Below the pieces are notes generated by a model. It searched no databases and was not told where the DNA came from. It was given only the letters and a program-made list of their open reading frames with translations. A stretch of DNA of 64,000 bases, from positions 7,440,001 to 7,504,000 of the forward strand of contig NZ_CP021780.1 in NCBI RefSeq assembly GCF_002192415.1. The letters run 5' to 3'. The translations under genes were made by a program, and so were the position numbers. Positions 12,726 through 34,568 of this stretch are shown one piece after another (the stretch's first letter is position 1; each line of letters starts with the position of its first letter). The DNA comes from Paenibacillus donghaensis. Lineage in GTDB: Bacteria; Bacillota; Bacilli; Paenibacillales; Paenibacillaceae.

Positions 12726-15700
12726 ATGAAGCGGTGTAACCTCTTGCTTCTGATTAGTATACTGCTTATACTTGCACCCGCTTCTGCCGTTTATGCTGAA
12801 AGAGAGGACATCAGATATCAGGCGGAACTCGACTATCCTCCATATAAATATATCCACAATGGCTACCTTGCCGGCTTCGATATCGATTTGACCGAAATGA
12901 TCTTCGAGAAAAAGGATTATCTGCTCGACTTCAGCACCGGCTCCTGGGAGTATGCATACGAGAAGCTGATTCAGGGGGAGATCGAGACTACAGGACTGAT
13001 GGTCGTCAGTGAGGAGCGCAGTCAGGATGTCTTGTTCTCTCAGCCTGTGCTGGGCAGCTTCATCTCCGTCTACGCCAGAGAATCATTCAGGGATAAGGTG
13101 ACCCTTGGCAACATGGGCAAATACAAGATTGGTGTAGGCAAGCAGCAATATGCCGAAACAATATTGAATAGCAAGGCCGGAGTTAAAGAATACATAGAAT
13201 ACCCCACTGTGCCTGAGGCGCTAGAGGCCCTTCAGAGCGGTGCAATCGATCTTTTGTTTGAGAACCAGGAGGTCGTGGATTATTTAATTGTGGAACGGGG
13301 TCTTACTGGCAAGATTGTCCGCAGAATAAGTGATCTCTACCCCAGAGATGTGGCTTACGGGATCAGTAAATCCTCCCCGGAGCTGGTTCCTTACATCAAT
13401 GCAAGGCTTGAGCACCTGAAGCGCTCAGGGGCTTTTGAAGACCTGTATCAGCAGTATTTCTTCGTCCATTCGGAAGCCTACAATACCATGATCCGCAACC
13501 GGATCATCTCAGGTGCCGTAATCATCTTCTGCCTGCTGGTGTTCGGGGTTGTTGCGGTGCGAATGTATATTAAGCATCTGCGGCGTGCGATTCATTCTGA
13601 GCAGCAATTCCTGGGTGATGTTATTGAGCATAGCGGGATTCTGATCTGGGCGGTCAACACTGACAGTAGGATTACCCGCTTCAATAAATATGCCGAGACG
13701 CTGACGGGACTAAGAGAACGGGACGTGCTTGGAGAGAGCCTGGGCAGCCTTCAGCCGCTGAAGCCGAATGCCGAGCAGCTCCGGAAGCTGCTGGAACGTG
13801 CAGTCCTTCAGGATTATGCTGGCAATGTGGAGCTAAGGCTTCCGGATAACCATCCTAATGCACGTTACTTCTCCATCCGTACGACGCTGATCAAAGGCTT
13901 GGATGATCAGTCGGCCGATATTTATGTGCTTGTCGGCATGGATGTGGATGAGCGCAAGCAGAACGAACTGAAGCTGCAGTCCAGCTATGAAGAGCTGGAA
14001 GCCACCTATGAAGAGCTGGCTGCTACGGAAGTGGAGTTGCAGGATCAATTAGACAAGCTGCGGGTGAGCGAACGCCGGTTCCACCTGGCTTCTGAAGGCT
14101 CCGGGGCCTATATGTGGGAGCTGGACTGGGAAACAGGCTTGTATAAGCTCTCGGACCGCTGGTATGAGGTGATGGGCCACACCGAGGAGGAGATTAATTC
14201 TTTCGAAGGCGGAGTGCTCAGCATCATTCACCCGGATGATCAGGAATCCTCTCGTAATGCAAGGCAGCAGCATCTCACGGGAATAACCCCGATCTATGAG
14301 ACGGAATACCGCATGCGGACGCGGGATAATGGTTATGTATGGTTTGAGGTAAGAGGCAAGGCGATTGTGGACCCAAGGGATAATATTCTGCTGTTTATCG
14401 GTTCGCTGATCGATATCAGCAAGCGCAAGCAGGTTGAATTCAAGCTGAACAACAGCTATCAGGAGCTGGAAGCCACCTATGAGCAGTTAACTGCTACCCA
14501 GCAGGAGCTGGTGGGACAATATGATGTGCTGCTGGAGAACCAGAAGAACATTCACCGCCTGGCTTATGTCGATTCGCTCAGCAATCTGCCCAACCGGCTG
14601 TCGCTGCTGGAAACCATGGAGAATTATTTGCAGAGGCCGGAAGGCAAGGCGGCACTGCTGTTCGTCGATACAGACAATTTCAAATATATCAATGATACCC
14701 TGGGCCACAAATCCGGTGATATCCTGATCCGCAAGGCCAGTGAGCGGCTGCAGTCGGTAGTCAGCGGGAATGAGCTGCTGTCACGGTTGGGCGGAGATGA
14801 ATTTGTTATTTTTATCAAAGACATCACGGACCGCGAGTCTGTGCTGAACTTGGCGGATACCATTCTGGGGGCGTTCCGGCAATCCTTTCTAATCGGGGAG
14901 AGCAATCTGTATGTCTCGGTCAGTATCGGCATTTCCTTCTATCCCGAGGATGGAGAGAGCACGGAAGAAATTCTGAAGAACGCCGATGTGGCGATGTACC
15001 GTGCCAAAGAAGAAGGCAAGGGCACTTATGTGCTCTATGACAAGTCCATGCATACGGCATTTAATGAACGGATGAATATCGAGAAGCATCTGCGCGGTGC
15101 ATTGGGTAATCAGGAGTTTGAGCTGCATTATCAGCCGCAGGTGGACATCCGCTCGGGGATGATCTCCGGATTCGAGGCGTTGATCCGCTGGAACAATCCG
15201 GTACTGGGATTCGTCTCGCCGCTGTCGTTCATCAAGGTTGCCGAGGATTCCAGATTGATTATTGATATCGGGGAATGGGTACTCCGGGAAGCCTGTCTGT
15301 TTATGAAGCAAGTCAATGAACGGATGCTCTATCCATACAAAATCTCAGTCAACATCTCGATCATTCAGATGCTTCAGGAGGACTTCACCGAGATGGTGCT
15401 GGACAGCCTGGCGGTTAGCGGACTGGTACCTAGCCTGCTGGAGCTGGAGATTACCGAGTCGGTCTTTATGAAGTCCTTCGGCAGCATTGTCAGCAAGCTG
15501 GAGTTCCTCAAATCGCAGGGGATTCGGATCGCACTCGATGATTTCGGAACCGGTTACTCCTCGCTCGGTTATCTGCAGCAGCTGCCGATCTCTACGCTGA
15601 AGATGGACAAGACTTTCATTGATTCCTTGTCGGAGAAGGATTACAGCCAGGCTTTCGTGCAGACCATCATTCAGTTGGGACATAATATGGGGCTGGAGGT

Positions 15701-15857
15701 TGTTGCAGAAGGCGTGGAAGACAGTGGCCAGCTGGCTTTTCTGAAGGAGTCGGGCTGTGATAAGGTGCAGGGGTATCTGGTCAGCAAGCCGCTGCCGGAA
15801 TCCGGGGTGAACGTACTGCTTGCCCAGCGCAAGCAATATGGGTTTCCTGATATGTGA
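12726..15857 (+). CDS. Sensor protein with solute-binding, PAS, GGDEF and EAL domains (c-di-GMP turnover)
   Basis: 1043 residues. Signal peptide, then a family-3 type solute-binding domain (~25-250; YPPYKYIHNGYLAGFDIDLTE), one membrane helix (~262-283), two PAS domains (~295-405 and ~450-575) each followed by a short helical spacer (SYEELEATYEEL, SYQELEATYEQL), a GGDEF domain with intact RLGGDEF (~690) and an EAL domain with intact GFEALIRW (~815) and the loop ALDDFGTGYSSLGYL. Both active-site signatures are complete, so it may make and degrade c-di-GMP. The external domain likely binds an amino acid or similar ligand. ATG with AAGGAG upstream. It faces a second diguanylate cyclase gene on the opposite strand. 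Confidence 0.92.
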   Translation: MKRCNLLLLISILLILAPASAVYAEREDIRYQAELDYPPYKYIHNGYLAGFDIDLTEMIFEKKDYLLDFSTGSWEYAYEKLIQGEIETTGLMVVSEERSQDVLFSQPVLGSFISVYARESFRDKVTLGNMGKYKIGVGKQQYAETILNSKAGVKEYIEYPTVPEALEALQSGAIDLLFENQEVVDYLIVERGLTGKIVRRISDLYPRDVAYGISKSSPELVPYINARLEHLKRSGAFEDLYQQYFFVHSEAYNTMIRNRIISGAVIIFCLLVFGVVAVRMYIKHLRRAIHSEQQFLGDVIEHSGILIWAVNTDSRITRFNKYAETLTGLRERDVLGESLGSLQPLKPNAEQLRKLLERAVLQDYAGNVELRLPDNHPNARYFSIRTTLIKGLDDQSADIYVLVGMDVDERKQNELKLQSSYEELEATYEELAATEVELQDQLDKLRVSERRFHLASEGSGAYMWELDWETGLYKLSDRWYEVMGHTEEEINSFEGGVLSIIHPDDQESSRNARQQHLTGITPIYETEYRMRTRDNGYVWFEVRGKAIVDPRDNILLFIGSLIDISKRKQVEFKLNNSYQELEATYEQLTATQQELVGQYDVLLENQKNIHRLAYVDSLSNLPNRLSLLETMENYLQRPEGKAALLFVDTDNFKYINDTLGHKSGDILIRKASERLQSVVSGNELLSRLGGDEFVIFIKDITDRESVLNLADTILGAFRQSFLIGESNLYVSVSIGISFYPEDGESTEEILKNADVAMYRAKEEGKGTYVLYDKSMHTAFNERMNIEKHLRGALGNQEFELHYQPQVDIRSGMISGFEALIRWNNPVLGFVSPLSFIKVAEDSRLIIDIGEWVLREACLFMKQVNERMLYPYKISVNISIIQMLQEDFTEMVLDSLAVSGLVPSLLELEITESVFMKSFGSIVSKLEFLKSQGIRIALDDFGTGYSSLGYLQQLPISTLKMDKTFIDSLSEKDYSQAFVQTIIQLGHNMGLEVVAEGVEDSGQLAFLKESGCDKVQGYLVSKPLPESGVNVLLAQRKQYGFPDM

Positions 15858-15980: not shown

Positions 15981-17075
15981 CTAGAAAATCACAATTTTGT
16001 TTTTCCCCGTTTTTTTGGCCTCATATAAGGCATCATCAGCCCGCTGGAAGATGGAACTCTTGGAATCGGCTCCCGAATAGTTGTGCATGCCGATGCTTAC
16101 CGTGACCGACTTGCCTTCCATTTCGGCTACCGGTGTTCCGGCAATTCCGGTCAATACCTTGTTCATAATTTCCTGCGATTCCTCCAGCGTCTTGGCGGTG
16201 AGAATGACCACGAACTCCTCTCCGCCATAACGGGCGGCGAAATCATCGGTGCCAATATGCGCAAGCAAGCTGGCAGACACCTGCTTCAGCACGATATCGC
16301 CAACCCAGTGCCCGTAGAGATCGTTGACTTTTTTGAAATTATCGATATCCATTACGGCCAGCTGCATCGGGAACGGATTGTTCTGCTGATGTTCGATCAG
16401 CCAGCCAAGGTATTCATGAAAGGTCTTGTGGTTATACAGATCCGTCAGCGGGTCAATCTTGGACAAGCGGTCCATGATGATATTCTGGATGCGCAAATCC
16501 TGCTCCGCCTTCAGGGAGTTCTCCAGCGAAATCTTCAGATCCCGCCCGCGTCCGATAATCCCGAACCCTGCGAGTGAAGTGCCCGCGAAGATCAGAGCGA
16601 TAATGATAATCTGTGTGCGCATCGTGTAATCGGAATGAGAGGTCTGGATGAACAGGGCTATGGTATACACCAGACAGACGGATGAGGATGCCAGAAGATA
16701 GCTGCTTTTGAGATAGATCATGGAGACCAGCAGCGGCAGCAGCATAATCAGCGGCTTCACATGAAATTCCGAACCTAAATGGATAATAATCAGGAGGGCA
16801 TACAGGTGGCTTGCGGCGCTAATCGCCAGTTCAGACCAACTGGGTCTCCATCTATAGGTACATTCGAGCAGAATCATCATCATCAGGATCAGGGAGTCGG
16901 GAACCAGGATATGGCTGATCATATAATCCAGGGTCGAAGTCTTGGGCTGGTCGCTCCAGATGGACCTGGATACAAGGAACTGAGTACATAGATATACAAT
17001 CAGAACTGCCCAAAAAGCGTTAAGAAGCACTCGGTTCCAATAGGCTTGACGAGGAGTTTGTGCGGGGGGATGCAT
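15981..17075 (-). CDS. Membrane-bound diguanylate cyclase (GGDEF)
   Basis: 364 residues. The N-terminal ~185 residues hold about six membrane helices of no named sensor type, then a short helical linker and a GGDEF domain with signature RYGGEEFVVIL near residue 283. DPLTDLYNHKTFHEYL opens the catalytic domain. It should condense two GTP to c-di-GMP. The allosteric RxxD inhibition motif is not evident before the signature. ATG with AGAGGAA upstream. A TTGTCGAA Spo0A-like site lies 40 bp upstream. Together with the neighbour at 12726 it gives the region two c-di-GMP enzymes, about 13 kb from a c-di-GMP riboswitch. Confidence 0.9.
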   Translation of the reverse strand: MHPPAQTPRQAYWNRVLLNAFWAVLIVYLCTQFLVSRSIWSDQPKTSTLDYMISHILVPDSLILMMMILLECTYRWRPSWSELAISAASHLYALLIIIHLGSEFHVKPLIMLLPLLVSMIYLKSSYLLASSSVCLVYTIALFIQTSHSDYTMRTQIIIIALIFAGTSLAGFGIIGRGRDLKISLENSLKAEQDLRIQNIIMDRLSKIDPLTDLYNHKTFHEYLGWLIEHQQNNPFPMQLAVMDIDNFKKVNDLYGHWVGDIVLKQVSASLLAHIGTDDFAARYGGEEFVVILTAKTLEESQEIMNKVLTGIAGTPVAEMEGKSVTVSIGMHNYSGADSKSSIFQRADDALYEAKKTGKNKIVIF

Positions 17076-17277: not shown

Positions 17278-17308
17278 TCCTATTGGCTCAACAATAAAGA
17301 TCAGCTGT

Positions 17309-17415
17309 TCGTATATCCTCAAAGATAAGGTTTGGGGGTTTCTACAGGGAACCGTAAATTCCTGGCTACGGATAGGGTGCTTTTTGCATACCTATGTAAT
17401 AGCCGGGATTTTTTG
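17309..17415 (+). ncRNA. Purine riboswitch, guanine type, with terminator
   Basis: The conserved purine aptamer pieces appear in order: TATCC, GATAAGG, GTTTCTAC, ACCGTAAA, CTACGG, GGATA. The base that reads the ligand is C (in GGCTACGG), as in guanine/hypoxanthine rather than adenine riboswitches. Right after it, CCTGGCTA (inside the aptamer) can pair with TAGCCGGG (17400-17407), followed by ATTTTTT. The terminator therefore competes with the aptamer, as in classic guanine OFF switches. The next gene on this strand is the FAD oxidoreductase at 17847, with a repeat array in between. Confidence 0.85.
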
Positions 17416-29598: not shown

Positions 29599-29847
29599 GG
29601 ATAGATCCTCCCAACGGATGAACTCCGATATTCGGAGCTGCAATGATTGCGGTTTCATTCCTTACCTTATTGTGCTACTTTCAGGCCCTGTAATCAATTC
29701 ATACTTTCGTCCAATCCGTTCGCAAAACGATATGGTTCATCTTGCATTCTCTATATTTCTATAACTATGCCAAAATATGATAGAATTTTCCGCTTGAATC
29801 AATGAAAAAAATTCCAGAAAACGACACACTTTTCCGTATTGATCTTG

Positions 29848-29881
29848 TATAATGTACTTGCGGATAACGGTTTTTTATAAT
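29848..29881 (+). promoter_or_regulatory. Candidate promoter(s) of the c-di-GMP riboswitch-sinI transcript
   Basis: Two exact TATAAT boxes lie at 29848-29853 and 29876-29881; neither has a strong -35. Either would start an RNA 20-50 nt before the aptamer. 29599-29847 is otherwise AT-rich intergenic DNA. Confidence 0.5.
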
Positions 29882-29904
29882 CATTAGCCAGATCCTTTCA
29901 TGCA

Positions 29905-30021
29905 AAGGGTCCAGTAAAGGGTAAACCTGCCGAAAGACAGGGGCACAAAGTCGCGGGTCTAAGGTAGAAATACTAAGACAGCCGGACTGCCTGGGGACGC
30001 GGAAATCTAGGAGGAGATTTT
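29905..30021 (+). ncRNA. Cyclic-di-GMP-I (GEMM) riboswitch leader of sinI
   Basis: Core elements occur in the order and spacing of GEMM-I: AAAGGGTAAACC, a GAAA-capped helix CCTGCC/GACAGG, GGGCACAAAGTC, GGGTCTAAGG, then ACTAAGACAGCCGGACTGCC. CCAG at 29911 can close with CTGG at 29991. The middle G of AGGGTAAACC is kept, as in c-di-GMP rather than cGAMP-type variants. Downstream, AAATCT and AGATTT (30003-30020) form a small hairpin that puts the AGGAGG ribosome site in its loop, followed by TTTT, so control of translation start is likely. ON or OFF sense cannot be told. Confidence 0.9.
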
Positions 30022-30177
30022 TTGGATAAGTCCAACCAGGGGAAAGATGGAGTTCTGAAGACGATGGATCTGGATGCGGAATGGATTCACCTCATGCTGG
30101 TAGCCAAGAAGGCTGGCATACAAGCAGAGGAGATCCGCCGCTTTTTTGCAGAGAAAGCTTGCCGTGTCATTGTGTAG
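30022..30177 (+). CDS. sinI: SinI-like antirepressor
   Basis: 51 residues from TTG at 30022, with AGGAGG seven bases upstream. The segment MDLDAEWIHLMLVAKKAGI followed by QAEEIRRFF matches the SinI/SinR dimerisation helix pair (compare LDQEWVELMMEAKEANIS in B. subtilis SinI, from memory). SinI binds SinR and releases it from DNA, switching on matrix genes. It has a c-di-GMP riboswitch as leader, which to my knowledge is not the Bacillus arrangement (there Spo0A acts on the promoter). It converges with a sinR-like gene on the opposite strand. A perfect-stem terminator follows at 30211. Confidence 0.88.
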   Translation: MDKSNQGKDGVLKTMDLDAEWIHLMLVAKKAGIQAEEIRRFFAEKACRVIV

Positions 30178-30210
30178 GACGGGTGAAGAGCTCTGGGATG
30201 TTGCATACCA

Positions 30211-30244
30211 GAAGAGGCACAGCGATTCGTCGCTGTGCCTCTTC
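30211..30244 (+). terminator. Terminator of sinI
   Basis: GAAGAGGCACAGCGA, loop TTCG, TCGCTGTGCCTCTTC: a 15-bp perfect stem. The T tail is weak (CCGGTTT). Confidence 0.75.
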
Positions 30245-30276
30245 CGGTTTACGACCAAGGGCTGAAGTATTTTTAA

Positions 30277-30381
30277 AAAGATAAGAATTTATATGCATCG
30301 CGCAATGAAATTAGCCTTCTCTTTCTCGCAGAAACGGATGCCGCCTCTTGCAGAGGACGGCGAAGCCGTTTCTACTTGTCC
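30277..30381 (+). repeat. Structured intergenic repeat, family 1, copy B
   Basis: Opens AAGATAAGAATTTATATG, contains CGCAGAAACGGATGCC and closes GGACGGCGAAGCCGTTTCT then ACTTGTCC. Its right end overlaps the 3' end of sinR and supplies the last codons and the stop. It lies in the same orientation as copy C on the other side of sinR. Confidence 0.7.
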
Positions 30382-30716
30382 TTGTGTTCCAGGCGCCATT
30401 TCTGATAGTCGAGGAATTCCTTGAATTCCCGCTTGCTTATACCTGAAGCCATCGCTTCCTGAACCAGCCCGAACCATTCGGCATCCAACGGGGACTCCCC
30501 GTCTTCGGCCACCTCGCCGTATAGCAGAGCATGTACAGATACCTGAAGCGCATCGGCGATCTTTTCAATGAACTGAATGGAGGGATTGGATTGAATATTT
30601 CTTTCGACATTGCTCAGATACGATTTCGCTACATTAGCCTTGTCTGCAAGCTCGGACAACGACAGCCCCTTCTCCAGACGGAGATGGTGGATGCGGCCTC
30701 CCATATGATCAGGCAC
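30372..30716 (-). CDS. sinR: SinR-like master repressor of biofilm matrix genes
   Basis: 114 residues from GTG at 30716 with GGAGGGG upstream. The N-terminal XRE helix-turn-helix is RIHHLRLEKGLSLSELADKA then VAKSYLSNVERN, very close to SinR. The C-terminal dimerisation domain DAEWFGLVQEAMASGISKRE then FKEFLDYQKWR matches the SinR region bound by SinI. It should bind GTTCTTT-type operators, and these lie upstream of the matrix operon (34253-34417). It is bracketed by two direct copies of a structured repeat, one overlapping its stop codon and one just before its ribosome site. The opposite-strand neighbour is sinI. Confidence 0.9.
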   Translation of the reverse strand: MPDHMGGRIHHLRLEKGLSLSELADKANVAKSYLSNVERNIQSNPSIQFIEKIADALQVSVHALLYGEVAEDGESPLDAEWFGLVQEAMASGISKREFKEFLDYQKWRLEHKDK

Positions 30717-30743
30717 GATAACAACGCCCCTCCGTACTTTTTG

Positions 30744-30844
30744 TAAATATAAGGATTTATATGTTTTACGTTATAAATCATCCTTATATTTCTCGCTGAA
30801 ACGCCCCGTCCTATAAAAGGACGGCGAAGCCGTTTCCACTTGTC
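30744..30844 (+). repeat. Structured intergenic repeat, family 1, copy C
   Basis: AAATATAAGGAT pairs with ATCCTTATATTT (first hairpin), then GAAACGCCCCGTCC and GGACGGCGAAGCCGTTTC form a second. It sits between the ribosome site of sinR and any promoter further out, so it is probably in the sinR leader. Confidence 0.7.
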
Positions 30845-30911
30845 TAGTATAACAAATATCGGCAATTCCGACAAAGCGCGTGGAAATTCAGGTAATGCGC
30901 GTATCATTGCT

Positions 30912-30963
30912 AAAAAAACGGCAGCTCCGGCCCGGACTAGGGCTTGGATCTGCCGTTTTTTAT
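30912..30963 (-). terminator. Terminator of the matrix operon
   Basis: AAAAAACGGCAG pairs with CTGCCGTTTTTT; T-runs on both strands. It is directly downstream of the last tasA-like gene. Confidence 0.85.
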
Positions 30964-30973
30964 AAGAGGGTTA

Positions 30974-31573
30974 TTAATTTGTTCTAATTTCCCCCAAGCC
31001 CTGCAGGGCGTTGAAGGTCCAGCTCAGGCTGATGCCGTCTCCCTGGAATTCATTCTGGTCAGCGTTGTTGTCGGCAAACTCAAAGGCTACTTTGAAATCC
31101 TTGGAGGACCCGGCTGCAATGCCGTTGCTGAATTCAGGCAGCGTAGTGAGATTCAAGGTATTCAAGGCCTTCAGTTCAGCGAAAGTAAGGGTAGTCTCAA
31201 TCTGGTTAGTAATTGCTCCGCTCGTATAGCTGCTCTTGAGAATATGGATCTTGAAATGTTTGCCTAGATCGTCCGCATTGGCCGGTGCACCTTCGCGGTT
31301 CGTTACCGTATATTCCGATTTCAGGCTTAGCCCTTTGATATCCAGGGAGCCGTCATTCTTAAGCTTGAAGCTGCGGACGGCGATATCGCCGGGCTTCAGA
31401 TTGTTGAGTGGAATAAACTGGGTAGGATCAGTGTTCAGGTCGAGGGTTCCGGCCGCGAAGGTTGCGGTTGTTTGTGCAGTATCACTGAAGTAGGCGAAGG
31501 TGCCTCCCCCGATTAAAGACAATCCCAGAGCTGCTGATGCTATGCCAAGACCCAGTGTTTTTTTGATACCCAT
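30974..31573 (-). CDS. tasA: TasA/CalY-family amyloid matrix protein (second copy)
   Basis: 199 residues, ATG with AAGGAGG upstream. The signal peptide KKTLGLGIASAALGLSLIGG ends at a SipW-type cleavage region before GTFAYFSDTAQTTATFAAGT. The mature part has typical TasA/camelysin blocks such as LKPGDIAVRSFKLKNDGSLD and GISLSWTFNALQ. TasA forms extracellular fibres in biofilms; CalY/camelysin is the relative in B. cereus. It is last in the operon and about 50 bp after its paralogue. Which of the two copies is the main fibre subunit cannot be told. Confidence 0.88.
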   Translation of the reverse strand: MGIKKTLGLGIASAALGLSLIGGGTFAYFSDTAQTTATFAAGTLDLNTDPTQFIPLNNLKPGDIAVRSFKLKNDGSLDIKGLSLKSEYTVTNREGAPANADDLGKHFKIHILKSSYTSGAITNQIETTLTFAELKALNTLNLTTLPEFSNGIAAGSSKDFKVAFEFADNNADQNEFQGDGISLSWTFNALQGLGEIRTN

Positions 31574-31623
31574 ATTGATGTTTCCTCCTTAGATTTATAT
31601 TGATTTATTAAATTTGTATTGTT

Positions 31624-32205
31624 TTATTTGTAGACGCCTGCTCCTTGGCTTGCCTCGAAGGTCCAGGTCAGGTTCAACTCGTCGCCTTGATAATAATTCT
31701 GCGGGGTCAGGTTTTCTTTGAAGAAAAAGCTCACGTACAGCTTGTCGCTGGTATTTGCCTTGATCCCTGATTTTTCGCCCCATAAGCCGGTTTTGACCAG
31801 ATCAGGTGTTATTTTCTCCAGATCGGCAAGCGATTTGACCAGGACAGGGATACTGTTCTTGTCATCATTGATCATAATCGTAACAATGATATCTTCCTTC
31901 AGATTGTGGCTGCCGTTATTGCCGTTCAGATCGTTTACGGTAGGTACAGTCTTAAGCAGCACCTTGGTGATGTCCAGAGAGCCGTCGTTCTTCAGCCAGA
32001 ACGTTTTGTTAATGGTGTCCCCGGGCTTCAGATTGTTGAGGTTCACGAAGATGGATGGATCGGAGGTCAGGCTCAATGTTCCGTTGTTAAAAGCAGCGTT
32101 GGTCTGGGCGGTATCGCTGAAATAAGCGAAGGTGCCGCCGCCGATCAGGGTCAGGCCCAAAGCTGCTGAAACGACACCAAGACCCAGTGTTTTCTTTACA
32201 TTCAT
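31624..32205 (-). CDS. TasA/CalY-family amyloid matrix protein (first copy)
   Basis: 193 residues from the ATG at 32205 (MNVKKTLGLG), with GAGAGGG upstream; a longer frame to 32274 adds 23 residues without support. The signal peptide KKTLGLGVVSAALGLTLIGG and mature start GTFAYFSDTAQTNAAFNNGT nearly equal the neighbour, so the pair arose by duplication. Later parts diverge (LKPGDTINKTFWLKNDGSLD, LNLTWTFEASQGAG). It is secreted, processed by the SipW next door and expected to build or modify matrix fibres. Confidence 0.88.
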   Translation of the reverse strand: MNVKKTLGLGVVSAALGLTLIGGGTFAYFSDTAQTNAAFNNGTLSLTSDPSIFVNLNNLKPGDTINKTFWLKNDGSLDITKVLLKTVPTVNDLNGNNGSHNLKEDIIVTIMINDDKNSIPVLVKSLADLEKITPDLVKTGLWGEKSGIKANTSDKLYVSFFFKENLTPQNYYQGDELNLTWTFEASQGAGVYK

Positions 32206-32301
32206 TTGTTCAACCCTCTCTTGTGCTTCTGAATTATAAGACTGGTCTTGCGGCGATGCATATGTGTGCTCCACGTTACGTAAACGGGAGGAGACAACGA
32301 A

Positions 32302-32889
32302 TTAATGAAGCGGATCGGGCACGGTTTCTGCGGCGGCAGGCACACTGTTTTTGCGCTCCAGCACGGATACGGCCTTCCAGGAGGTGTAAAGCGCGTAGAG
32401 CAACAGCAGCAGCCCCGGAACAATCATCAGCAGAATACTGCCTGCTTTGGAGACGGCGAAATTCATGGCATAACCGACATAAGGCACAGTAATTCCGGTA
32501 TATTGGCCTACGACATTAGTCGAGAAAACAGGAGCAGAATCGGCGGCATCATTGGCATCGCCTTTGGTGGTATAGGTAGCTTGATTCAGCGCGGAATTCA
32601 TCTGCACATCAACAATACGGTGGGTGATCAGCCGGCTCTCCTCATCCATGAAGGTGATCACATCGCCTTTCTGGAAGCGGGTCATGTCACCGCCGGGCTT
32701 CAGCGCAACTACAGAACCGGTATGGATGCCAGGCTCCATGGAGCCGGATAGTACGGTTTTGATCTGATAGCCGAAGAGCGAAGGCTCACCGCCGGAGGCT
32801 TTGGAGATGACCACGGCAACCACCAGGACCAGAAACAGCATAAACATCAGGGTGGTCAGGGTATTGGTAATTATTTTTTTGACACGCAT
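32302..32889 (-). CDS. sipW: SipW-type signal peptidase I
   Basis: 195 residues. The ER-type signal peptidase motifs are KTVLSGSMEPGIHTGS (catalytic Ser) and ITHRIVDV with His in place of the usual Lys general base, as in SipW. There are membrane helices at both ends (~10-30 and ~150-172), and the GDANDAADSAPV segment carries the Asp residues. It cleaves TasA-type preproteins during export. It starts 3 bp after the TapA-like gene and is followed by the two tasA-like genes, the same logic as tapA-sipW-tasA in Bacillus. Confidence 0.93.
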   Translation of the reverse strand: MRVKKIITNTLTTLMFMLFLVLVVAVVISKASGGEPSLFGYQIKTVLSGSMEPGIHTGSVVALKPGGDMTRFQKGDVITFMDEESRLITHRIVDVQMNSALNQATYTTKGDANDAADSAPVFSTNVVGQYTGITVPYVGYAMNFAVSKAGSILLMIVPGLLLLLYALYTSWKAVSVLERKNSVPAAAETVPDPLH

Positions 32890-32892
32890 CGT

Positions 32893-34230
32893 TCATTCGC
32901 CGCCTTCTTCGGGAATAGGAGTTGGAGTTGGAGTTGGAGCTTCGGCTGGTGCAGGCGTGGCCTGTGGAGTGTTCTCTGCCAAGTCTGCTGCTGGTTCAGC
33001 CGGTCCATTCGGTGTTTCGCCGGCTGCCGTCCCGGGCGATGGGCTGGGCTGTTCTTGAGCTACGGGCTCAGGAACGGTCAGTTCATCATCGAGAGTAGGG
33101 GTCACAGTTGGTTTGCTGTTGTCGTCCGCAGCTTGTTCTTCGTTCACCGCTGCAGGCTGTTCTTTGTCTTTGTCTTTCTGTAATTTCTGCTCTTCCTCAG
33201 CCTTCCGGGCTTCTTCGGCTTTCCGGGCTTCCTTAGCCTTCCGGGCTTCTTCGGCTTTCCGAGCTTCTTCAGCCTTCCGGGCTTCCTCCAGCTTCTCCTG
33301 CTCCAGTAGTGCGGTCCGGGCTTCCTCCACTTGCTGCTGGCGGCTGTGCAAGCTGTCCAGGCTGGATGCCAGGCGCTTGCCGCTGTTCTCCAGCTCTGCC
33401 TGCAGTTGCTCATAACTGGAGAGCAGCTGTGCTGACATTGCCGGGCCTTCGGCCCCCGCTGCGCTTATAGCTGAAGGATAAGCTGCTCCAGAACTGAAGT
33501 AGCCGGTGGTTTCATCCGGCGGTTGGTTGCCGCTGAACATGATGCCGGGAGAAACGCTGCCCCATTGCTGAATGGAGGTTAAATAGCGGAGGATTCCGTT
33601 CAGCGTATCCATCAGCGGCTCGGACAGCACCCCGCTCTGATTGACATGCTGCTCGAATTCCTGGAAGAACTGTGCGTCACGGATCTCCAGACAGCCTGGC
33701 TCAAGCTCGATCATATATCCTCCAATTTGCGCCAGCAGCTGCGCTGCGCTGCCAAGCTCCTGCAGAATTTGCTGCCAAATGTCCCTGTTCACGCTGCGCT
33801 GCTGTTCTATGGCAGCTATACCGGCATTGGCTGCAGACATTTGCGAGCTAAGGAGCGCTGCGGTCTGCTCTAATTCGTCCAAGGACAGTCCGCTGATATC
33901 GGAAGCATCTCCGATGTCTACAGCAGGTGAGTGTCCGGCGAGTGCTGCCTTCAGCAGGGCGATCCGCTGGATATGGCCGCTGAACTCGCTGAGCAGCTGC
34001 TTGATTTGACCGGGGAACACTTCACACAGCTCTATCGGATTGTCCAACTGCTGCCCCGAACTGTAACCGCCATAAGTGCTCCCGATCTGGCTGGAAGTAT
34101 AGAAGAGAAGGATGGAGACTGCCATGCCTGATTGCAGCACCCGCAGGCCGGTTTTCTTCTTGCGTGTTCTTTTTCTGGCTGCTCTTGGGTACAGAGGAAG
34201 GCCTCCTCTCGTGATGGTTCTGATATGCAA
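32893..34230 (-). CDS. TapA-like anchor protein candidate with KAEEA repeats
   Basis: Up to 445 residues. A basic N terminus (RKRTRKKKTG), a hydrophobic helix (VLQSGMAVSILLFYTSSQIG), a helical middle (~55-300), a repeat of EARKAEEARKAEE units (~315-350) that should be coiled coil, and an acidic Pro/Thr-rich tail. It holds the tapA position before sipW-tasA, and TapA also has a short hydrophobic start and a disordered charged tail, but sequence similarity is not visible. The TTG at 34230 has no ribosome site; AGGAGG at 34202-34207 sits seven bases before an in-frame CTG at 34194, a good non-standard start (433 residues). SinR-type operators lie upstream. Confidence 0.7.
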   Translation of the reverse strand: MHIRTITRGGLPLYPRAARKRTRKKKTGLRVLQSGMAVSILLFYTSSQIGSTYGGYSSGQQLDNPIELCEVFPGQIKQLLSEFSGHIQRIALLKAALAGHSPAVDIGDASDISGLSLDELEQTAALLSSQMSAANAGIAAIEQQRSVNRDIWQQILQELGSAAQLLAQIGGYMIELEPGCLEIRDAQFFQEFEQHVNQSGVLSEPLMDTLNGILRYLTSIQQWGSVSPGIMFSGNQPPDETTGYFSSGAAYPSAISAAGAEGPAMSAQLLSSYEQLQAELENSGKRLASSLDSLHSRQQQVEEARTALLEQEKLEEARKAEEARKAEEARKAKEARKAEEARKAEEEQKLQKDKDKEQPAAVNEEQAADDNSKPTVTPTLDDELTVPEPVAQEQPSPSPGTAAGETPNGPAEPAADLAENTPQATPAPAEAPTPTPTPIPEEGGE

Positions 34231-34252
34231 AAGTTCGTTATTCGCTATAAGT

Positions 34253-34268
34253 GTTCTTTATAAAGAAC
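34253..34268. promoter_or_regulatory. SinR-type operator 1 (perfect palindrome)
   Basis: GTTCTTTATAAAGAAC. The Bacillus SinR half-site is GTTCTYT; here two face each other perfectly, 23 bp upstream of 34230. Confidence 0.8.
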
Positions 34269-34331
34269 AACTTCGTAAGCAAAGCATACACTAAAGACCC
34301 AAGAAATGAAAAACGCGATCTAAGGCTAAAA

Positions 34332-34347
34332 TTCCTTTATAAAGAAC
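34332..34347. promoter_or_regulatory. SinR-type operator 2
   Basis: TTCCTTTATAAAGAAC: one perfect half (AAAGAAC) and one with a mismatch. Confidence 0.7.
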
Positions 34348-34385
34348 GAATATATCTGTTTTTCGCGTACTATCTCCTATAATCA

Positions 34386-34568
34386 TTAATTTACATGAAA
34401 TATTCTTAATAAAGAACGAAAATGTTTGTCTGCAAGTAATCTTTTCAACTTCGGATTCTGCCCTTTGTCACGAATAGCCCAGCGTTTCAGAAGTTCATAC
34501 CCGGCATGTCCTTGATCTGTAAAGCAGGGGGGAGGATAATGTTTGGAACCGGAACCGGCAATAAGCAA
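34386..34568 (-). CDS. Doubtful 60-residue reading frame over SinR site 3
   Basis: It reads GYELLKRWAIRDKGQNPKLK in its middle, which looks protein-like, but it has no ribosome site, its start is unclear and it overlaps an operator. It could be a remnant of a longer gene or chance. No family recognised. Confidence 0.2.
   Translation of the reverse strand: MLIAGSGSKHYPPPCFTDQGHAGYELLKRWAIRDKGQNPKLKRLLADKHFRSLLRIFHVN
34402..34417. promoter_or_regulatory. SinR-type operator 3
   Basis: ATTCTTAATAAAGAAC region with AAAGAAC half-site perfect and TTCTTAAT as the other half. Three such sites in 165 bp suggest cooperative repression of the matrix operon. Confidence 0.65.

Follow-up and report, generated by a model that had tools for sequence, protein, structure and literature searches.

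A probable c-di-GMP-I riboswitch in the sinI leader of Paenibacillus donghaensis and its recurrence among the Bacilli

In Bacillus subtilis, sinI is controlled by Spo0A at its promoter, and to our knowledge no riboswitch acts on this gene. A 64,000-nucleotide stretch of the Paenibacillus donghaensis genome (contig NZ_CP021780.1, positions 7,440,001 to 7,504,000; hereafter the window) raises the question of whether sinI can also be governed by an RNA that senses the second messenger cyclic di-guanosine monophosphate (c-di-GMP). The original prediction for this locus, made by a model from the sequence, held that a GEMM-I (c-di-GMP-I) aptamer stands directly before a SinI-like gene that converges with a SinR-like repressor gene, and that c-di-GMP sets the level of SinI through this RNA. 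Both the aptamer and the convergent gene pair are borne out by our searches, and we consider it probable that a c-di-GMP-I riboswitch in the sinI leader acts on translation, most likely to turn sinI on.

The aptamer and its target gene

The search with the c-di-GMP-I model of Rfam that the original prediction had proposed gave a match over the cut-off. Specifically, RF03167 (c-di-GMP-I-GGC) matches the window with an E-value of 2.2e-14 and a score above the gathering score of 59 (Table 1), and the parent model RF01051 scores the same RNA higher still (76.3 bits against a cut-off of 35). The genome of P. donghaensis holds seven c-di-GMP-I matches, among which the sinI copy ranks first by RF01051, and the sinI start codon follows the aptamer at a distance of 26 nucleotides on the same strand. 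Because this genome has only seven such aptamers, yet every one of the 64 sinI loci recovered from the genus has one, the presence of the aptamer at sinI is beyond chance. It is very likely that the link between riboswitch and sinI is real.

The target gene encodes a small standalone protein with the SinI domain of Pfam and has sinR adjacent to it, features that by sequence mark its product as a probable SinI antirepressor, although the NCBI SinI equivalog model gives it 31.1 bits, under the cut-off of 80. A Paenibacillus SinI profile recovers the solved SinI chains 5tmx_A and 1b0n_B (E-value 1.4e-8). The start codon is TTG in 63 of the 64 genus loci and GTG in the remaining one.

With 23 GGDEF matches in its genome, this species is likely to have c-di-GMP signalling. 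Genes for two GGDEF proteins lie in the window, at a distance of about 13 kb from sinI, one at 12726-15857 (+; 1043 amino acids, with an EAL part recognized by eye) and the other at 15981-17075 (-; 364 amino acids).

By pattern match, the equivalents of G20, A47, and C92 (position names that we take to follow Vc2 numbering) are kept in all 80 class I sinI aptamers of the family, although the C92 pattern itself requires C. This conservation bears on whether a different cyclic dinucleotide, for instance cyclic GMP-AMP (cGAMP), could be the ligand. The top Rfam label is that of the variant family c-di-GMP-I-GGC, and cGAMP is bound by some GEMM-I RNAs (PMC8835794, cited here, like the other papers below, for part of its text). 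However, RF01051 outscores RF03167, the G20 equivalent, which is described as a selectivity factor (PMC9262584), is G in every case, and the same gene carries a c-di-GMP-II aptamer in other genera. A ligand other than c-di-GMP thus seems highly improbable.

Elsewhere in the genome, tandem c-di-GMP-I aptamers (G000:C1:7797679-7797925; L001 and L002) precede a gene for a 269-amino acid secreted protein that is transglutaminase-like by eye; tandem aptamers of this class at COG1305 are listed in PMC12452182. The remaining copies (L004-L007) stand before large open reading frames, several of which have starts that look by eye like signal peptides.

Recurrence in the genus, the family, and other Bacilli

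We searched 100 genomes of the genus with the SinI sequence of the window. The 36 genomes without a match are uninformative; the other 64 matched, and all of their loci were fetched. Each of the 64 loci matches a class I model directly before sinI, at 78-99 bits, a count that rests on a custom model (R2) built partly from these same leaders. With Rfam, which was applied to the window and to the whole genomes of the genus set, at least 93 of 100 genomes match. In all 64 loci, sinR converges with sinI.

For the family, a SinI profile run over 394 genomes gave 141 matches in 139 genomes, 64 of them in the genus and 77 in other genera. By Rfam at an E-value of 0.01, the 77 loci of other genera divide into 16 with a class I aptamer, 41 with c-di-GMP-II, and 20 with neither, which brings the family to 80 class I, 41 class II, and 20 loci where the aptamer is absent or decayed. 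All 57 aptamers in the other genera lie in the sense direction upstream of sinI. No genus in the set has both classes: class I occurs in g1, g3, and g5, and class II in g2, g9, g15, and g16. At the class II loci, sinR converges with sinI in 39 of 41 cases and lies upstream in the other two, and the arrangement therefore has the look of a single locus served by two unrelated sensors. This picture is weakened by the class I loci of g3 and g5, where sinR was not seen in the fetched 1.5 kb. That two unrelated aptamers occur at the same gene argues that the link itself has been selected.

Inspected by eye, the 20 loci without an intact aptamer comprise six (all g3) with palindromes, seven with TTCGACA, which we take to be the core of the Spo0A box, two with decayed aptamers, and five with neither. 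The g3 palindromes resemble GTTCTTTATAAAGAAC, two of them exactly, two with one mismatch, and one each with two and three. Since these six palindromes (L108, L122, L126, L146, L152, and L166) are SinR-operator-like, feedback on sinI by SinR is possible there. The decayed class I aptamers score 28.6 bits (L115) and 17.1 bits (L109), and the end of the leader is still kept in both.

Beyond the family, the wider samples comprised 398 genomes of the class (73 matched) and 296 of the order (139 matched), from which 80 loci outside the family were picked by hand, so that the rates given here are biased. Class I models match 25 of these loci and class II models four, and Rfam at an E-value of 0.01 confirms 28 of the 29 aptamers. 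In 26 loci, spread over 15 of 22 sampled family labels, the aptamer is in the sense direction and directly upstream of sinI (24 class I and 2 class II). The 24 include two weak members, L204 (35.9 bits with the custom model, unseen by Rfam at this E-value) and L219 (29 bits with Rfam). Three aptamers were not assigned to sinI: L218 is antisense and downstream, and L230 and L236 lie 312 and 542 nucleotides upstream. In Oceanobacillus jordanicus, a named case outside the family, an aptamer with 66.5 bits by RF01051 is immediately followed by sinI and then sinR. Of the 24 class I loci, 17 have sinR in the fetched stretch; it is absent there from both class II loci and present at 45 of the 54 loci lacking an aptamer. 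At 11 of the 24, sinR lies downstream on the sinI strand.

Five records were also chosen by name (L100, L101, L103, L104, and L105), and only in L100 does an aptamer directly precede the SinI-like gene. In L103, from Paenibacillus radicis, a class I aptamer (2021-2105, -) lies about 900 nucleotides from the SinI-like gene on the opposite strand.

A strand shared by the aptamer and the early sinI codons

When the leader is folded freely, a hairpin that we call P0 forms, and CCUGGGGAC pairs with GUCC-AA-CCAGG, enclosing the Shine-Dalgarno hairpin and the start codon. The pairing strand contains the 3' side of P1, the stem that closes the aptamer (Table 1). The alignment of sinI leaders across Paenibacillus that the original prediction had suggested reveals the P0 pattern in all 64 leaders, with one pair seen as T-G, T-A, and C-G. 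Codons 4-6 of sinI (TCC AAC CAG), which lie within the partner, are identical in all 64 loci and are the only such codons among codons 2-30, in a codon table where 14 proteins of 49 amino acids are out of register past about codon 9. Leu24 is also invariant as an amino acid but is encoded by five different codons. A median of 2.35% of random synonymous encodings pair more strongly than the real codons over 44 distinct cases, and in 34 of these the share is 5% or less; the duplex values for leader G185, which also represents G190, are invalid because the wrong strand was taken. The leaders are related by descent, which limits the weight of the codon and helix counts. In g3, the helix persists while its bulge changes from AA to GC and the amino acid from N to A.

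These features suggest the following mechanism. Without ligand, P0 would form and CCUGGGGAC would pair with codons 3-7, closing a domain that takes in the weak UUG start codon together with the Shine-Dalgarno hairpin, which would hinder loading of the 30S subunit. On binding of c-di-GMP, P1 would close the aptamer and remove the switching strand, and the early codons would be freed. SinI would then be made and would titrate SinR off the matrix operon, perhaps with a Spo0A-type input at the promoter needed in addition. The shared strand and its conserved partner indeed provide a modelled platform that excludes P1, although the folding predicts its effect on initiation only in part.

Specifically, when P1 is forced to form, the predicted cost of opening positions +4..+21 falls in 64 of 72 leaders and rises in 2. 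Because this region becomes cheaper to open and the Shine-Dalgarno sequence is hardly altered, we infer that ligand binding would free the early codons rather than the Shine-Dalgarno sequence. The original prediction had rightly placed the ribosome-binding site in the loop of a small hairpin (AATCT-AGGAGG-AGATT), but its emphasis on that hairpin has to shift, given that the predicted partner of the shared strand is codons 3-7 and that forcing P1 does not open the Shine-Dalgarno sequence. The idea that class I leaders work by releasing this sequence is unsupported.

Several results weigh against a translational ON switch at sinI. With P1 forced, the cost of opening the larger region -16..+19 falls in only 49 of 72 leaders and rises in 7, and that of -16..+3 is lower in 16 and higher in 28. 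Mean openness of the Shine-Dalgarno sequence is nearly flat (0.517 to 0.541, 71 leaders), and that of the start codon drops from 0.448 to 0.238. Some g3 and g5 leaders of class I form a weak helix with the early codons (-6 to -10 kcal/mol); in the genus the helix is nearly invariant, so covariation is scarce. The whole leader folds no better than shuffled sequences (z -1.02). Among the family matches, 20 of 141 have no intact riboswitch, and the class I loci of g3 and g5, 16 in all, yielded no sinR within the fetched 1.5 kb.

The reduced openness of the start codon could instead indicate an OFF switch, in which ligand lets the Shine-Dalgarno hairpin or a start-codon pairing block initiation and c-di-GMP lowers SinI; GEMM-I aptamers are known in both ON and OFF switches (PMC9262584). 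We regard this as unlikely, as the early codons (+4..+21) are predicted to open more easily with P1 formed and the class II sinI leaders favor ON control. In those leaders, the 3' strand of P1 is itself the anti-Shine-Dalgarno strand, with matched variants in most (CCCC or CCCA with TGGGG, CCGA with TCGG), and of the 41 leaders, 28 have a more open Shine-Dalgarno sequence when P1 is forced and 6 a more closed one. Thus, the modelled folding of both classes suggests ON control, reached through different wiring. In addition, sinI rose at high c-di-GMP in Bacillus thuringiensis, in a study that names no sinI riboswitch in the part of the text cited (PMC7793685).

Control of transcription would be another route to the same gene, with the AATCT...AGATT hairpin and the T-run that follows it in the window acting as a regulated terminator. 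The stem, however, is A/T-rich with five pairs, a terminator scan of the positive strand found none, and the T-run is broken in many relatives (GATTTC, GATATC), all of which makes a terminator very improbable. We therefore retain translational ON control as the preferred explanation. Conservation, the two aptamer classes at one gene, and a conserved platform give good support to the proposal that c-di-GMP, the presumed ligand, sets SinI through RNA.

The surrounding locus and related systems

Table 1. Positions of the riboswitch elements and neighboring genes in the window
Feature	Position	Strand	Basis
Candidate Spo0A-like site, CGACACACTTTT block before the -10 box	29822..29833		Strongly conserved in 64 genus leaders
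TATAAT, likely -10 box of sinI	29848..29853	+	Conserved in 64-leader alignment
P0 hairpin GATCCTTT...AAAGGGTC, 3' side overlapping the start of P1	29891..29911	+	Free fold
c-di-GMP-I aptamer	29911..29995	+	RF03167 69.5 bits; RF01051 76.3 bits
Switching strand CCTGGGGAC, contains 3' side of P1, pairs with 30030-30040	29990..29998	+	Free fold; duplex energies, 44 distinct leaders
Small hairpin, Shine-Dalgarno GGAGG (30010-30014) in loop	30004..30019	+	AATCT-AGGAGG-AGATT; in leader alignment
sinI, 51 amino acids, TTG start	30022..30177	+	PF08671 37 bits, cut-off 31.4
GTCCAACCAGG in sinI codons 3-7, partner of switching strand	30030..30040	+	Codons 4-6 identical in 64/64
Terminator-like 15-bp hairpin in the sinI-sinR interval, without clear T-run after it	30211..30244		Hairpins after sinI in 64/64 loci
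sinR	30372..30716	-	1b0n_A E 2e-37; HTH_3 and SinI-type domain
TasA-like protein 1	30974..31573	-	PF12389 201.2 bits; SipW-type signal peptide TIGR04088 41.3 bits
TasA-like protein 2	31624..32274	-	PF12389 216.9 bits; TIGR04088 30.8 bits
sipW	32302..32889	-	NF046067 251.2 bits, cut-off 190
445-amino acid protein, family without assignment, in the place of tapA	32893..34230	-	Position
Palindrome GTTCTTTATAAAGAAC, likely SinR operator	34253..34268		SinR operator consensus

Upstream of the aptamer, a CGACACACTTT block and the TATAAT box are both conserved across the 64 aligned genus leaders; a consensus scan reported no positive-strand promoter. The block resembles what we take to be the Spo0A box consensus, and transcription of sinI may therefore still depend on Spo0A. 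Matches to TTCGACA carry no mismatch in 12 leaders, one in 39, and two in 13, including the window copy, counts that by themselves show no excess over chance expectation. The riboswitch need not replace Spo0A control, and both inputs may act.

The adjacent operon had been described as TapA/SipW/TasA. SipW stands, and two TasA-like proteins are present, under the cut-off of the NCBI TasA equivalog (103 and 106.6 against 450 bits). For the product of 32893-34230, Pfam and NCBI family searches gave no match at a curated cut-off, to TapA or any other family, and its TapA name thus follows from position. TasA- and SipW-like genes occur in 23 of the 33 genus loci longer than 6 kb, and exact GTTCTTTATAAAGAAC, presumably a SinR site, in 7 of them. 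In the 8.54-Mb genome of P. donghaensis, this palindrome has a single copy at one mismatch or fewer. The window also holds a purine riboswitch aptamer (17289-17388, +) and a thiamine pyrophosphate riboswitch aptamer (58216-58105, -), both above their gathering scores.

The convergence of sinI and sinR throughout the genus means that a long read-through transcript would be antisense to sinR. A c-di-GMP-I riboswitch antisense to a SinR-like gene has been proposed in Paenibacillus sp. FSL P4 (PMC9943018), a proposal that the original prediction left out of account. Hairpins follow sinI in all 64 genus loci (stems of 6-26 pairs); the one in the window has no clear T-run, and some read-through may occur. 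As the function of the leader, however, action on sinR from the opposite strand is most improbable: the sense gene sinI begins just past the aptamer and has early codons conserved for pairing with the aptamer strand, a hairpin separates it from sinR, and in other families sinR often lies downstream on the same strand (11 of 24 class I loci). The sense target offers a simpler reading of the published antisense case.

The original prediction knew of no described RNA link to sinI, but one is on record. Inspection of 5'-untranslated regions longer than 100 nucleotides, found by RNA-seq in Bacillus methanolicus, yielded an entry "(c-di-GMP)-sinI" for a putative c-di-GMP riboswitch in the sinI 5'-untranslated region (PMC4342826). 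Thus, a riboswitch-sinI link was already noted for one species in 2015, and what is new here is its breadth, the use of two aptamer classes at the locus, the platform embedded in codons, and the simpler reading of the antisense case. Among the matches listed in our literature search, no paper described c-di-GMP-II at sinI, this platform, or this breadth.

If our explanation is true, a direct RNA path leads from c-di-GMP to the master switch of matrix formation in Bacilli, a group whose best-studied species couples sinI to Spo0A. One possibility, to which we give about even chances, is that c-di-GMP is a general input to SinI-SinR across the Bacilli through interchangeable, unrelated aptamers, in which case the promoter-only control of B. 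subtilis would be the exception. Upstream of aptamer-less sinI genes there is often a palindrome resembling the SinR operator or a box resembling that of Spo0A, an observation we cite for this broader view.

The P. donghaensis locus shares with the B. subtilis system the SinI antagonist, the SinR repressor, and a target operon with TasA and SipW. The likeness to B. methanolicus MGA3 lies in the putative c-di-GMP riboswitch of the sinI leader; that report, in the part cited, consists of one table row and one sentence and gives no aptamer class, platform, direction, or survey (PMC4342826). In Paenibacillus sp. FSL P4, the aptamer opposite a SinR-like gene probably belongs to the same kind of locus; sinI is unnamed in the portion cited, whereas the P. 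donghaensis aptamer has a sense target (PMC9943018). Finally, the Vc2, Cd1, and pilM GEMM-I riboswitches belong to the same aptamer class, and the sinI riboswitch differs from them in its target gene and its early-codon platform (PMC9262584).

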